Shown piece after piece: positions 2,357 to 7,517 of a stretch of 9,479 nucleotides of DNA. The stretch's first letter is position 1, and each line of letters begins with the position of its first letter. Both the position numbers and the translations under genes were made by a program. Origin of the DNA: a bacterium (lineage in GTDB: Bacteria > Blakebacterota > Blakebacteria > Blakebacterales > Blakebacteraceae); the NCBI GenBank assembly GCA_025774615.1, contig JALGVQ010000111.1, forward strand, positions 1-9,479, written 5' to 3'. A model generated the notes under the pieces. That model was not told the origin of the DNA. It did no database searches and saw nothing but the letters and a program-made list of their open reading frames with translations.

Positions 2357-2593
2357 ATGCCTGTCAATCTGTCGATCAAGAATGTTCCCGATGACCTTGC
2401 CGAGAAGCTGCGTCAGCGCGCCAGGGCGGCACACCGATCGCTTCAGGGTGAGCTGATGGTCATCCTTGAAGAAGCAACAGGTGAATACCAGCCGGTCACT
2501 CTCGGGATGATCAGGGAACGGGCTCGAGCCTATGGGATCAGGACGAAAGATGACTCGGTCGACATTATCCGCGAGGATCGCGATGAGCGGTAG
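2357..2593 (+). CDS. FitA/VapB-type ribbon-helix-helix antitoxin
   Basis: A 78-residue DNA-binding antitoxin. The N-terminus has the RHH pattern: a short strand (PVNLSIKNV at 2-10), helix 1 from about 11 to 25 (PDDLAEKLRQRARAA) and helix 2 from about 28 to 40 (SLQGELMVILEEA). This matches FitA-like antitoxins closely. The C-terminal half is charged and ends in REDRDER; in this class it normally wraps the toxin and blocks its active site. A G-rich ribosome binding site (AGGGGGA, 2346-2352) precedes the ATG by four bases. The stop overlaps the next gene by 11 bases, indicating translational coupling with the PIN toxin. It should neutralise the toxin and repress the promoter at 2285-2313. Confidence 0.9.
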   Translation: MPVNLSIKNVPDDLAEKLRQRARAAHRSLQGELMVILEEATGEYQPVTLGMIRERARAYGIRTKDDSVDIIREDRDER

Positions 2594-2993
2594 TCTCATC
2601 ACGATCGATGCCTCCGCTCTTGCCTCCGTGATATTCAATGAGCCCGGGAGTGACGCAGTGTGGAGCGCAGTAAGGGATCGGCCTCTGGTAGCTCCATCCC
2701 TGCTTCCATACGAACTCGCGAATGTGGCTGCGAAAAAGATGCAGGCGTACCCTGAACAATATCAGTTGCCTGAGATCATCTCGCTGGTGGACAATCTCCT
2801 GATCGACTATGTGACGGTCCCATTTACCGATGCCGTGATCCTATCCTTGGAAACAGGCCTCTCCAGTTACGATTCAGCCTATCTCTGGGTAAGCCGGGGA
2901 CTGGACATCCCGCTGGTAACACTGGATGTGAAACTGAGCATGGCTGCTCGACGACTTGGGATAGAGGTATCACTCCGGAATAAAGGAAGCTGA
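2583..2993 (+). CDS. vapC: VapC-type PIN-domain ribonuclease toxin
   Basis: A 136-residue PIN-domain protein, the usual size for VapC toxins, which are Mg2+-dependent RNases that cut tRNA or rRNA. Acidic residues fall where the family needs them: D9 in ITIDASAL, E44 in LLPYELANV, D97 in LSSYDSAYL and D115 in VTLDVKL, so the active site looks intact. The ATG at 2583 gives the canonical N-terminal strand; a longer in-frame start at 2532 would add 17 residues with no family match and run deep into the antitoxin gene. It overlaps the antitoxin by 11 bases and lies just before the HicB-like gene. RNA target unknown. Confidence 0.92.
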   Translation: MSGSLITIDASALASVIFNEPGSDAVWSAVRDRPLVAPSLLPYELANVAAKKMQAYPEQYQLPEIISLVDNLLIDYVTVPFTDAVILSLETGLSSYDSAYLWVSRGLDIPLVTLDVKLSMAARRLGIEVSLRNKGS

Positions 2994-3264: not shown

Positions 3265-4977
3265 ATGATTGGGAAATATATAGGAAGATATGAGATAATA
3301 GAAAAACTCGGCGAAGGCGGCATGGGGATTGTCTATCTCGCTGAAGACCTCAACCTGGGCCGTAAGACGGCTCTCAAACTGTTACCGCCAGAAGTAGCGA
3401 CAGATCCCGAACGACTTTCCCGCCTCCATCGAGAAGCGCGAGCTGCGGCCGCCCTCAACAATCCCCATGTTTGCACGATCTATGAGGCTGGAGAAGCCGA
3501 GGGTAATTCCTTTATCAGCATGGAATACGTTGAAGGGACAACCTTGCAGGAGAAGATCCCTGCCGGTGGTCTTCCAGTCAGTACGGTTCTCACCCTGGGG
3601 GCTCAGATTGCAGAGGGGGTCGCTCACGCTCACGAAAAGGGGATCCTTCACCGGGATCTGAAGAGCTCCAATGTGATGATCACAAGCGATGGGCGAGCCA
3701 AGGTCATGGATTTCGGATTGGCTCGGCCATTGCAGAATACCGAGGTGGAGGAACTCACTCACTCGATCGCCGACCTGACTGTGGCCGGTTCTGTTGTTGG
3801 AACGCTCCCCTATCTCGCACCCGAAGTTCTCCGGGGAGAGTCTGCAACAGAGTTGAGTGATATCTGGGCCATCGGGATTCTGCTCTATGAAGCAGTGACA
3901 GGTGTGCTTCCCTTCCAGGGTGAGACCGGATTCGCACTCACCTCAGCAATCATGACTGAACAAGCACCTCCCCTTCCCCCTGGAACAAAAGCTGGCCTCA
4001 TTGCCGTTATCCAGCGCTGCCTGGACAAGGATCCCATTCAGCGGTACCGATCGGCTGATCAAATCCGAGCAGCTCTGGAGGCATTGAGTTCGGATGTCTC
4101 CATCAAGCCCCCTGTGATGTCATGGGTTCCTGTACCGGGACGGGGCCTGTGGTACGCCCTGGCAGTTGCTGGAGTTCTGGCCGCCTCGGGAATTGCCTGG
4201 TGGATCAGCACCTCACGCCCGATGAAGCCCAATTTTCTTCATGTGAGAAATGTCACCACCGAAAGGCATGTCACCAGCGACGAAAACTACACCAGTCACC
4301 CATCCTTCTCACCCGACGACAACTGGATTGCGTTCAGATGGGATGCAGAGCCACACGGCCCGGGGATTTATCGCATCTCCGTGGAAGGTGGGACTCCTCG
4401 GCTCCTGGTCAGCGACGGCTTCTTACCGGTCTGGTCACCTGATGGCCGTTGGATCGCCTACCTGCGTGAGAGGGACGAGGCCAGCTTCTGGATTGAGCGC
4501 ATTTCATCGGGGGGAGAGGGTGAATCCCAACAGATTGGTCATTCTACCACCAATCCAGATGGAGTGGCTCTCTACTGGGGCCTGGACTGGTCACCAGACG
4601 GAACAGCTCTAGCCATCGTGGACAGGGAAGCACCCGAACAGCCTTATGGTATATATCTACTCTCCCTTGAATCCGGGAATAAGGAGAGAAAACTGATCCT
4701 GCATCAGAACAAGAGAGAGACATGCTGCCGGTCTTCTCACCCGACGGTCGGAAGCTGGCATTTCTTCGACAAACTTCGTTTCCAAAGAATCGCGACATCT
4801 ACATTCTCTCTCTGGAAAGTGGAGAATTGCTCCGGCTTACCTCTGACAACAGCGAGATACGCAGTCTCGACTGGATGCCGGACAGCAAGTCAGTTGTATT
4901 CTCCTCCGGTCGCAACGACGGTCAACTGCGACTGTGGTGGACTCCCGTCAGAAGGCATTCAGTTCCAATCCAGTTGA
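3265..4977 (+). CDS. Membrane Ser/Thr protein kinase (PknB type) with PD40 propeller, frameshifted: 5' part
   Basis: The N-terminal kinase (about 9-270) has all key residues: glycine loop GEGGMG at 16-21, ATP lysine K38, helix-C glutamate E57, HRDLKSSN at 129-136 with catalytic D131, DFG at 149-151, APE at 185-187, D199 and R260. One membrane helix follows (LWYALAVAGVLAASGIAWW, about 295-313), placing the kinase in the cytoplasm and the rest outside the membrane. PD40/WD40-like repeats begin after residue 345 (PSFSPDDNWIAF, WSPDGRWIAYL, WSPDGTALAIV). Genuine coding ends near residue 485 (about 4719); beyond that this frame is meaningless to its stop at 4977, and the propeller continues in the frame of 4722-5909. 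An in-frame TAG at 3232-3234 makes the ATG at 3265 the only possible start; it lacks a ribosome binding site but matches where homologues begin. Confidence 0.88.
   Translation: MIGKYIGRYEIIEKLGEGGMGIVYLAEDLNLGRKTALKLLPPEVATDPERLSRLHREARAAAALNNPHVCTIYEAGEAEGNSFISMEYVEGTTLQEKIPAGGLPVSTVLTLGAQIAEGVAHAHEKGILHRDLKSSNVMITSDGRAKVMDFGLARPLQNTEVEELTHSIADLTVAGSVVGTLPYLAPEVLRGESATELSDIWAIGILLYEAVTGVLPFQGETGFALTSAIMTEQAPPLPPGTKAGLIAVIQRCLDKDPIQRYRSADQIRAALEALSSDVSIKPPVMSWVPVPGRGLWYALAVAGVLAASGIAWWISTSRPMKPNFLHVRNVTTERHVTSDENYTSHPSFSPDDNWIAFRWDAEPHGPGIYRISVEGGTPRLLVSDGFLPVWSPDGRWIAYLRERDEASFWIERISSGGEGESQQIGHSTTNPDGVALYWGLDWSPDGTALAIVDREAPEQPYGIYLLSLESGNKERKLILHQNKRETCCRSSHPTVGSWHFFDKLRFQRIATSTFSLWKVENCSGLPLTTARYAVSTGCRTASQLYSPPVATTVNCDCGGLPSEGIQFQSS
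4712..4719 (+). other. AG dinucleotide run at the kinase frameshift
   Basis: The run is AG x 4 within AACAAGAGAGAGACATG. The reading frame shifts here from the kinase frame to the frame of 4722-5909. With one AG fewer, the text would read N-K-R-D-M-L-P-V-F-S-P-D-G without a break. A two-base expansion, a lost base, a read error or programmed slippage could all produce this. I see no classical X-XXY-YYZ heptamer in the zero frame. Confidence 0.75.
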
Positions 4978-5909
4978 ACGTGGGGAAAGGTACAAGAGAA
5001 CTGTCCATCAGCAGCGCGGGAGACCAGATCGCGTGTTCGATGCAAACACAAAGAGACTGGGACGTTATGAAGGTCAATGGTCCCACTTCAGGACAGGTAT
5101 CAGCTTCACCATTCATTGCCGGTGTCGCTGCATCGGATAACGATCCGGTTTACTCACCAGACGGCAACATGGTTGCATTCAGATCCGGAAGATCAGGAGG
5201 TCAGGGTGCAGTATGGCTGTGTGACCGCGAGGGAAGGAACTTACGGAAGGCAGCGCAGATCAACGGACTTGGTGTCACTCCGCGGTGGTCACCTGATGGG
5301 CGTCGACTTGCCTTTTCTGGTTCCAACTCCGCAGACGATGAATCTGGACACTCTATTTACATTCTGGATGATATTGATCAGCCATTCACACGCAGACTGA
5401 CCACACTTGAAAACGTCCGCGAGTACTTTCCGGCCTGGTCGCGAAATGGAGAACGTATCTATTTCTGCTCCGATCGAGGTGGAACGCGACAAATCTGGAT
5501 GATCCCTGCCGAGGGTGGTGAGGCAAGGCAGCTGACGACACAAGGAGGGGAGCGGGGATTCGAATCAGAAGATGGTGACTTTTTCTACTACAGCACACGA
5601 GCCCCGACCCGTATTTGTCGGGTTCCTCGTGATGGCGGTGCGGAGGAGGAATTGCCTGTCCCGCTCGGGAATGCTTCACGCTGGACACTCTGGATGAATT
5701 GTATCCTCTACGTTCCAGAGGACCGGCACAATGTCATCGAATTGTTTGACCTGGACACACATCAGATTTCACAAGTAGCGGTCCTGCCTGAGGATCCCGG
5801 CTACATATTTGGAATGACCGCCTCACCTGACGGAAACACGCTTCTGTATGGAGCGCGCACCGAAATGATATTCAATATCTCGATCGCGGAAGCTTCGCGT
5901 CGCAGATGA
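4722..5909 (+). CDS. PD40/TolB-like propeller, 3' part of the frameshifted kinase gene
   Basis: This frame continues the extracytoplasmic propeller of the kinase. PD40 motifs recur: FSPDGRKLAFL at its start, DWMPDSKSVVFSS, YSPDGNMVAFRSGRSGG, WSPDGRRLAFSG, WSRNGERIYFCSDRGG and ASPDGNTLLYGA. Such repeats form TolB-like blades that bind proteins or ligands and are thought to sense signals for the attached kinase. Joined to the upstream part, the protein would be about 880 residues, normal for kinase-PD40 fusions. The first ATG at 4722 is preceded only by AGAGAGAG, a poor ribosome binding site. A propeller half without signal peptide or anchor is unlikely to work alone, so the region is best read as one gene broken by a frameshift. 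Nothing recognisable follows up to the RelE-type gene. Confidence 0.85.
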   Translation: MLPVFSPDGRKLAFLRQTSFPKNRDIYILSLESGELLRLTSDNSEIRSLDWMPDSKSVVFSSGRNDGQLRLWWTPVRRHSVPIQLNVGKGTRELSISSAGDQIACSMQTQRDWDVMKVNGPTSGQVSASPFIAGVAASDNDPVYSPDGNMVAFRSGRSGGQGAVWLCDREGRNLRKAAQINGLGVTPRWSPDGRRLAFSGSNSADDESGHSIYILDDIDQPFTRRLTTLENVREYFPAWSRNGERIYFCSDRGGTRQIWMIPAEGGEARQLTTQGGERGFESEDGDFFYYSTRAPTRICRVPRDGGAEEELPVPLGNASRWTLWMNCILYVPEDRHNVIELFDLDTHQISQVAVLPEDPGYIFGMTASPDGNTLLYGARTEMIFNISIAEASRRR

Positions 5910-6101: not shown

Positions 6102-6404
6102 TCAATATGCGTCACGTCGCAGGTCGATAGTGAGAATTGACACAATATCCTCTTCTTCATCGATCCCATAGAACAGTCGGAATCGTCCAATTCGATAGCG
6201 CCAGGTATCGGGCGAATACCCTCTCAGTTTCCTGGTATTGGGGCCGAAAAAAGGTTCCTGACGCAACTGGGGATAGATGTACTCATCCAGTTTTCGGCGG
6301 ATGAACTGAGCATCTCGTGCGGAGAGTTTCTTCAGCTTCTTGAGGAACTCCTCTGTTTCGAAAATGCGGAACTCAGGCAAATTGCCCCCGCTTTTCGTCG
6401 GCAT
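6102..6404 (-). CDS. RelE/ParE-family toxin
   Basis: A 100-residue protein with the RelE/ParE fold pattern: strand FRIFETEEF near 12-20, two basic helices (LKKLKKLSARDAQFIRRKLD), and a C-terminal sheet with RKLRGYSPDTWRYRIGRFRL at 58-77, then FYGIDEEEDIVSILTID and the family ending RRDAY. RelE toxins cut mRNA in the ribosome and ParE toxins poison gyrase; the basic, RelE-like C-terminus favours the former, but this is not certain. The start is ambiguous: ATG 6404 lies seven bases from GGGGG, ATG 6410 is only one base from it, and TTG 6380 has another G-run just ahead. All overlap the antitoxin, which ends at 6373. Co-transcribed with the RHH gene upstream. Confidence 0.85.
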   Translation of the reverse strand: MPTKSGGNLPEFRIFETEEFLKKLKKLSARDAQFIRRKLDEYIYPQLRQEPFFGPNTRKLRGYSPDTWRYRIGRFRLFYGIDEEEDIVSILTIDLRRDAY

Positions 6405-6612
6405 CACCATGCCCCCGTCTGATACTCTCCTTGAGGCTCTTGCTGGCCTCTATCTCCTCCATCTCGAATTCATCCACAAACTGTTCGACCTCTATAAAAC
6501 GGAGCACTGCTGTTTCGATGAAGTTGGAGAGCGGTCGATTATCACTCTTGGCAAGCTTGCGGAAGAGGTCATACACTCTCTCGTCCAGGCGGAGGGTTAC
6601 GGTCTTGGACAT
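6373..6612 (-). CDS. Ribbon-helix-helix (CopG-like) antitoxin
   Basis: A 79-residue antitoxin and autorepressor. The N-terminus MSKTVTLRLDERVYDLFRKL gives the RHH strand (about 3-9) and helix 1, and PLSNFIETAVLRFIE (27-41) gives helix 2. The acidic stretch EVEQFVDEFEMEEIEA (41-56) should bind the basic toxin. The ATG at 6612-6610 has GGGAG seven bases upstream; an alternative start at 6651 would add 13 residues translated from the operator repeats and is rejected. The gene overlaps the RelE-type toxin at its 3' end. The 10-bp repeat array at 6641-6680 directly upstream is its likely binding site. Confidence 0.87.
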   Translation of the reverse strand: MSKTVTLRLDERVYDLFRKLAKSDNRPLSNFIETAVLRFIEVEQFVDEFEMEEIEASKSLKESIRRGHGDADEKRGQFA

Positions 6613-6626
6613 GTTCAGCTCCCTTG

Positions 6627-6652
6627 ATTGTATCCAATAATAAGAATACAAT
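6627..6652. promoter_or_regulatory. Inverted repeat ATTGTAT/ATACAAT in the antitoxin leader
   Basis: ATTGTAT at 6627-6633 and ATACAAT at 6646-6652 are perfect seven-base inverted repeats with a 12-base spacer. The right arm belongs to the 10-bp repeat array, and the left arm is one more copy of the same half-site in opposite orientation, near the start codon. It extends the operator or forms a hairpin in the leader. Confidence 0.5.
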
Positions 6653-6680
6653 AGAATACATATAAATACAATTCAATACA
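6641..6680. repeat. Four 10-bp tandem repeats, operator array of the RHH-RelE module
   Basis: Four consecutive decamers each end in AATACA: TAAGAATACA, ATAGAATACA, TATAAATACA, ATTCAATACA. The period of 10 bases is close to one DNA turn, so all copies face the same side of the helix. A promoter for the minus strand can be drawn inside it: TTGAAT at 6676-6671, 17 bases, TATTGT at 6653-6648. RHH repressors such as CopG and omega bind short direct or inverted repeats cooperatively, which this layout suits well. Confidence 0.75.
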
Positions 6681-6839: not shown

Positions 6840-7220
6840 TCAGGCTGTAATGAGTTCGAGTCCATCAACTTCTTCGAAATGTCGGCGGTTCCGAGTCAGC
6901 AGCATCCCCCCTTTTTCCATCACGATGCCGGCGATCAGGCAGTCAGCCATACCGATGTCACTCCCCCTGGCACGCAGATCCCGCCGGATTGTGGCAGCCA
7001 GATCTGCGGATGTTTCATCCAGTGGCAATGCAGGCAGGGCTTCCAGTAGCTGCTGGATCGTGCGTTCCTGTTTTGTTGATCGAACCCCGCACAACAGTTC
7101 AAAAAGGGTGATAACAGTGATCCAGAGTACGCCCCTTTCCAGATAATCCATAACGGTAGTGGCACCCGGATCGGTTCCGGTGAGGAAATCGATCAGGACA
7201 TCCGTATCGGCCACGATCAT
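6840..7220 (-). CDS. vapC: VapC-type PIN-domain ribonuclease toxin (second copy, different subfamily)
   Basis: A 126-residue PIN toxin. Acidic residues of the active site are present: D5 in MIVADTDVLIDFL, E41 in ITLFELLCGV and D93 in IGMADCLIAG, followed by the family signature LLTRNRRHFEEVDGLEL at 107-123 with N111. It differs clearly from the PIN protein at 2583-2993 and is not a recent duplicate. The ATG at 7220 overlaps the antitoxin stop as ATGA, a common coupling arrangement; a GTG at 7226 could add two residues. Predicted role: growth arrest by RNA cleavage when the antitoxin is lost. RNA target unknown. Confidence 0.92.
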   Translation of the reverse strand: MIVADTDVLIDFLTGTDPGATTVMDYLERGVLWITVITLFELLCGVRSTKQERTIQQLLEALPALPLDETSADLAATIRRDLRARGSDIGMADCLIAGIVMEKGGMLLTRNRRHFEEVDGLELITA

Positions 7221-7456
7221 CGCCACGACTCCCGGATCCGATTGATCTCATTCTTCAGATCGGTCGCTTCATCCTCGGAGAGGGAGCCTTTGAGCTCCAG
7301 CGCTTTCTTTTGACGTTCCAGGAGCGCATCCTGGCTGGCGAGATATGTATCGATCGCCTCCGCGACGACACCCGAGAATCCTTTTTCCCCTCGCCTCGCA
7401 GCCATCTCCAGCAACCTGGCCCTGTGCTCCGGATCCATTTCGATGGTTGTTCTCAT
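7217..7456 (-). CDS. vapB: VapB-like ribbon-helix-helix antitoxin
   Basis: A 79-residue antitoxin. MRTTIEMDPEHRARLLEMAA gives the RHH strand and helix 1; GFSGVVAEAIDTYLA (26-40) gives helix 2; the charged helical tail (LLERQKKALELKG, then EDEATDLKNEINRIRESWR) should bind the PIN toxin. The stop overlaps the toxin start by four bases (ATGA). The ATG at 7456 is out of frame with an upstream ATG at 7470 that has a far better ribosome binding site and is followed by an almost identical start. The perfect palindrome at 7491-7510 in its promoter is the likely binding site for autoregulation. Confidence 0.88.
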   Translation of the reverse strand: MRTTIEMDPEHRARLLEMAARRGEKGFSGVVAEAIDTYLASQDALLERQKKALELKGSLSEDEATDLKNEINRIRESWR

Positions 7457-7487: not shown

Positions 7488-7517
7488 AATATACATGCAT
7501 ATGCATGTATTTACAAA
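7488..7517 (-). promoter_or_regulatory. Promoter of the second vapBC module
   Basis: On the minus strand, TTGTAA (7517-7512) and TATATT (7493-7488) are separated by 18 bases, matching the consensus at 4 and 5 of 6 positions. The spacer is filled almost exactly by the palindrome 7491-7510, so a bound repressor would exclude RNA polymerase. The RNA would start near 7481, with a very short leader before the MRTTI ORF. Confidence 0.55.
7491..7510. promoter_or_regulatory. Perfect 20-bp palindromic operator
   Basis: ATACATGCATATGCATGTAT is identical to its own reverse complement over all 20 bases. It lies between the -35 and -10 boxes of the antitoxin promoter. Perfect symmetry of this length is expected for a dimeric RHH antitoxin or toxin-antitoxin complex. 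Confidence 0.75.

Follow-up and report, generated by a model that had tools for sequence, protein, structure and literature searches.

Operators of ribbon-helix-helix (RHH) antitoxins are already known as a class. In Escherichia coli, RelB dimers occupy one helix face of the operator relO, with the RelE toxin as co-repressor (PMC2812701). At relBE of Streptococcus pneumoniae, hydroxyl-radical footprinting gave three protected stretches around the -10 box, all on the same helix face and 10-11 bases from one another (PMC8071376). The omega/ParB protein of plasmid pSM19035 places one RHH dimer on each asymmetric short repeat, binding weakly to one repeat and strongly to at least two contiguous ones, direct or inverted (PMC9499535). 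The locus considered here, an antitoxin-toxin operon with a tandem repeat upstream of it, is located in the window, i.e., the whole analysed stretch of 9,479 nucleotides from a bacterium of the Blakebacterota (contig JALGVQ010000111.1). It comprises the following features:

6102..6404, - strand: predicted RelE/ParE-superfamily toxin P0002, 100 aa; Pfam ParE_toxin over the cut-off, NCBIfam RelE_StbE just below the cut-off
6373..6612, - strand: predicted RHH antitoxin P0001, 79 aa; Pfam DUF6290 over the cut-off, RHH_1 below the cut-off; 80 homologues
6619..6624, - strand: ribosome-binding site AGGGAG, from the sequence
6627..6633, + strand: putative inverted half-site ATTGTAT; 4.0 bits, P about 0.13; at the same place only in L003; doubtful
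6641..6650, - strand: candidate operator decamer 4 (TGTATTCTTA), strong core copy; 13.7 bits; holds the predicted -10
6643..6648, - strand: predicted -10 hexamer TATTCT, inside decamer 4; TATTCT in 37/52 forward-oriented loci
6651..6660, - strand: candidate operator decamer 3 (TGTATTCTAT), strong core copy; 14.6 bits; conserved pair with 6641-6650
6661..6670, - strand: candidate operator decamer 2 (TGTATTTATA), weak, presumably accessory copy overlapping the predicted -35; 6.1 bits, without C7
6666..6671, - strand: predicted -35 hexamer TTGTAT, 17 bp from the -10, where homologues have TTGACA/TTGnnn
6671..6680, - strand: candidate operator decamer 1 (TGTATTGAAT), weak, presumably accessory copy upstream of the -35; 6.6 bits, without C7

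With E. coli relBE this locus has in common an RHH antitoxin, a RelE-superfamily toxin, a TGT core and the placement of the operator, which in relO covers the -10 and the transcription start (PMC2812701). However, relO is built of four [A/T]TGT[A/C]A hexads forming two 12-bp palindromes (-10 to +17) and tolerates no extra spacing, whereas the array of the window, spanning about -40 to -7, repeats an asymmetric unit directly every 10 bp; having no 12-bp (pseudo)palindromes, it was not assigned to the relO type. The pneumococcal operator is described as two palindromes, and no TGTATTC direct repeats are reported in the available part of the source (PMC8071376). The omega arrays differ in their 7-bp repeats, in their number (up to 7-10 per array) and in serving partition and copy control rather than as a toxin-antitoxin operator of the present kind; an omega-type array of contiguous heptads was rejected on the 10-bp period of the window. 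CopG of pMV158 and Arc, which have the folds closest to the P0001 model, also place adjacent RHH dimers on one operator, but their operators are symmetric or pseudo-symmetric elements and not TGTATTC direct repeats (PMC9731233 and general knowledge). CopASO-ParESO of Shewanella combines an RHH antitoxin with a ParE-superfamily toxin and has two GTA-core units 10 bp apart (GTANTAC N3 GTANTAC; PMC8706911), yet each of its units is itself palindromic and the sequence is another. Finally, the RHH repressor TrcR of Anabaena recognizes a TGTA-core site overlapping the -10 of its own promoter, but it has no toxin, controls many target genes and uses an 8-bp consensus for which no tandem array is reported (PMC10272220).

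P0001 and P0002 are predicted, from sequence and from the modeled antitoxin fold, to form a type II toxin-antitoxin pair of the RelE/ParE superfamily with an RHH antitoxin, toxicity and neutralization being part of this prediction. The start of the P0002 gene overlaps the antitoxin gene by 32 nt. P0002 scored 34.6 bits against Pfam ParE_toxin (cut-off 23), which places it in the RelE/ParE family, and had weak sequence relatives among RelE-type chains. P0001 scored 28.4 bits against DUF6290 (cut-off 27) and, together with its fold match, is an RHH-domain antitoxin. Its AlphaFold model (mean pLDDT 77.6; residues 11-40 above 85) matched Arc, CopG and CopASO chains with a probability of about 1.0 and a TM-score by target of 0.72-0.90, the Foldseek E-values exceeding 0.1 for this very short chain; a sequence search found no solved relative. 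As it reached only 22.1 bits against the NCBIfam RelB antitoxin equivalog NF046040 (curated cut-off 50), it was not filed as RelB. In the N-terminal strand MSKT[VI]TLR, presumed to be the DNA-binding strand, K3, T4, T6, L7 and R8 are invariant in 47/47 antitoxins, as would be expected if the strand reads an invariant site.

A preliminary description of this DNA had pointed out four consecutive decamers ending in AATACA, and these are indeed present without gaps at 6641-6680, which reads TAAGAATACA ATAGAATACA TATAAATACA ATTCAATACA (6641-6650, 6651-6660, 6661-6670 and 6671-6680, respectively). The operon strand (-) reads, 5' to 3', TGTATTgaat TGTATTtata TGTATTctat TGTATTctta ... ATACAAT ... AGGGAG ... 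ATG. The exact hexamer TGTATT thus occurs four times at one constant period, while at most two were seen when these 100 bases were shuffled 5,000 times with dinucleotides preserved and searched for exact hexamers at any constant period of 7-12 bp, and in the 3.3-Mb genome of the organism TGTATT-N4-TGTATT without mismatch occurs solely in this array. The four sites are not equal: a half-site model derived from the homologues with the window left out gave 13.7 and 14.6 bits for two strong copies and 6.1 and 6.6 bits for two weak ones. The outer copies (6661-6680) score low because they lack C7, the most informative position, and decamer 1 is absent at its position in L003, the nearest relative of the window.

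By the criterion set in the preliminary description, the operator would have been refuted had the decamer not been conserved in front of homologous modules. A scan for the antitoxin over 84,980 species yielded 80 homologues (53-89% identical), the homologous toxin being encoded downstream in 77/80 of these loci; another DUF6290 protein, L121, belongs to a toxin-first pair and was left out. Upstream regions were readable for 79 homologues, making 80 with the window. Among these regions, 56/80 contain TGTATTC pairs (no more than one mismatch) spaced by exactly 10 bp, compared with 0.12 in shuffles, and besides 10 bp only 20 bp stands out among the same-strand spacings. The resulting 20-position model, TGTATTCTAW TGTATTCTWW, has the 10-bp period; its leave-one-out score exceeded 10 bits in 72/80 upstream regions (0.4% of shuffles) and 15 bits in 65/80 (0.05% of shuffles). 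The regions above 10 bits come from 18 named phyla and from 28/32 antitoxin clusters at 75% identity. Relatives differ in copy number, which ranges from 2 to 4: at a lenient threshold, runs of two units were seen in 48 loci, of three in 20 and of four in the window alone. What is conserved is a core of two decamers, a degenerate third overlying the -35 box, and the longest run seen has four. Counting against an operator, poor copies of the element were found at L044, L032, L063, L028, L047 and L065, and two family antitoxins, both from Latescibacterota, have no operator element (L017, 167-400; L023, 1501-1737); L023 also has no recognizable toxin downstream, and both are possibly solitary or re-wired copies.

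The array overlies the predicted promoter of the antitoxin's own operon, and repeated short sites in such a position are characteristic of RHH autorepressors. In the 52 well-scoring loci that form the forward-oriented group, the -10 lies inside the second core decamer with TTGnnn at a 17-bp spacer, and the degenerate third unit of the homologues, TGnnnTTC, is merged with the -35 TTGnnn. In 19 loci the array is on the opposite strand, 16 of them forming one clade, mostly Ignavibacteria; in these inverted arrays the -10 is TACATT (16/18), derived from the complementary strand of the decamer unit, and the spacer is again 17 bp. The tree, which is poorly resolved, needs at least two changes of orientation. 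Since orientation differs by clade while the place over the promoter stays the same, a protein site fits better than a part of the promoter. In the window, transcription of the operon is predicted to start near 6636 on the - strand. A + strand promoter-like sequence (TTGATT-17-TACAAT, 6624-6652) crosses the same repeats in the opposite direction; its TACAAT echoes the TACATT of inverted arrays, and no clear gene follows on that strand.

The inverted ATTGTAT at 6627-6633 had been counted into the operator. It is present as written, 11 bases from the nearest AATACA (6645), but its 4.0 bits were matched or beaten by 13.5% of flank shuffles and its register is shared by L003 only. In the family, convergent sites are modestly enriched (at least 4 bits in 14/52 loci; 200 shuffles gave 6.0 on average and never more than 13), and 6/14 of them share a single register, 30 bp away from where the first core unit starts. 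As the copy of the window stands at register 23, not 30, and is near chance, the half-site was rejected as a fixed part.

In a reverse search of 32 whole genomes with the two-decamer pattern TGTATTCTAWTGTATTCTWW, two mismatches being allowed, 31 places were found, compared with 4 for the control, the same pattern read backwards. Upstream of the antitoxin family of P0001 were 29/31 places, none beyond a few tens of bases from the start codon. As nearly all places are at the antitoxin, the element goes together with this gene and marks neither promoters in general nor a regulon. A match at L101 lies within coding sequence and was discarded as an operator. Another, at L097, is upstream of a sequence-unrelated pair of RHH (RHH_1) and ParE proteins (1235-1520) whose promoter is overlaid by TATTCTATTCTATTGTATTC; this counts against the operator in so far as a comparable site might be recognized there by a different RHH antitoxin. 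No mobile copies were found in viral contigs or plasmids. The sole exact pattern match in viral contigs (L137, 4536-4570) comprises four TGTATTC units at 10 bp inside an open reading frame for a low-complexity peptide and was rejected for want of operator context; such a repeat in coding sequence means that the repeat alone is no proof of an operator.

The conservation upstream of the homologues and the almost exclusive location at the antitoxin indicate that 6641-6680 is very probably the operator of the cognate autorepressor, through which P0001, whose binding we infer, represses its own operon; the array itself is real, conserved and almost certainly functional. It might instead be promoter sequence and nothing else, A+T-rich -10/-35-like hexamers that recur through promoter conservation. 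The decamer does supply a fair -10 (TATTCT, 17 bp from a TTGnnn -35) and, with the -10 lying inside it, some of its conservation is promoter conservation, which counts against the operator. Sigma-70 promoters have no required sequence in the spacer, however, whereas here the spacer decamer is as conserved as the -10 decamer; T1, G2 and C7 rank with the most informative positions, although a -10 does not need them; the mostly-Ignavibacteria clade keeps a promoter with another -10 under an oppositely oriented array; and outside this locus the genomes hardly contain the element. We therefore consider a mere promoter very unlikely.

Chance or slippage, i.e., a recent tandem expansion of an A+T-rich spacer with no function, could have produced the two outer copies, which may be duplications (copy 1 is missing in L003 and both are without C7), and the phage coding sequence at L137 has four TGTATTC at 10 bp without such context. 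The core pair, however, is kept across phyla amid diverged flanks, and so this origin, possible for the outer copies only, is likewise very unlikely for the array. Sites of this size could also be read by proteins other than the cognate antitoxin, but a host-encoded regulator would have to retain the same specificity in 18 phyla and act at one locus per genome, while no protein other than the antitoxin is known to accompany the site; we regard such a regulator as the least likely explanation.

If P0001 is the cognate repressor, each asymmetric decamer (core TGTATTC) would take the two-stranded beta sheet of one RHH dimer in its major groove. Three 10-bp steps lag the 10.5-bp helix by only about 50 degrees; successive dimers would lie on about the same helix face, so that neighbors could touch and bind cooperatively. 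By analogy with E. coli RelB-RelE, bound toxin probably strengthens occupancy of the array. Cooperative filling would run from the strong core (6641-6660, with the -10 box) outward, the weak copies at 6661-6680 extending the array over and past the -35 box, and the occupied array would exclude RNA polymerase from both boxes. When the antitoxin is degraded or the toxin is in excess, the array would empty and the operon would be re-expressed. The operator proposed in the preliminary description accordingly stands as regards conservation at one helical turn over the promoter, cooperative binding being a supposition that we share; that the number of units sets the strength of repression is a fair hypothesis.

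The window contains three toxin-antitoxin modules in 5 kb. Overlapping genes for a FitA-like RHH antitoxin and a PIN-domain toxin are located at 2357-2993 (+ strand), and a VapB-like/PIN (VapC) pair at 7217-7456 and 6840-7226 (- strand). Just upstream of the latter is a long palindrome (ATACATGCATATGCATGTAT, 7491-7510), the probable operator of that module and of quite different design. At 3265-5909, the gene for a Ser/Thr kinase that carries a PD40 beta-propeller extends to 4977 and apparently continues in another frame from 4722 to 5909, a frameshift that is either real or due to assembly. No RNA families were found in the window.

New in this operator are direct repeats of an asymmetric 10-bp unit that merge with the promoter, as well as the inversion of the array in one clade, where the -10 has been rebuilt. 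The doublet sequences were not found in the open-access literature, a body that excludes most subscription journals, and no described member of this particular RHH-RelE family was found in the literature searched. Tentatively, and with more doubt than confidence, we suggest that one design, in which asymmetric TGTATTC units spaced by exactly one helical turn are fused with the promoter hexamers, stayed with the antitoxin family as it spread over many phyla; inversion of the array would have rebuilt the -10 (TATTCT to TACATT) from the complementary strand of the same unit, and the core would be accompanied by 0 to 2 accessory units, whose number could change freely and so tune repression. This RHH-RelE toxin-antitoxin family gains an operator with a sharp consensus, which can also serve as a DNA signature to detect or verify its modules where genomes are unannotated. 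Its natural variants with 2, 3 or 4 units, in both orientations, make the effect of unit number and order on repression and on the sensing of the toxin:antitoxin ratio testable in one system.
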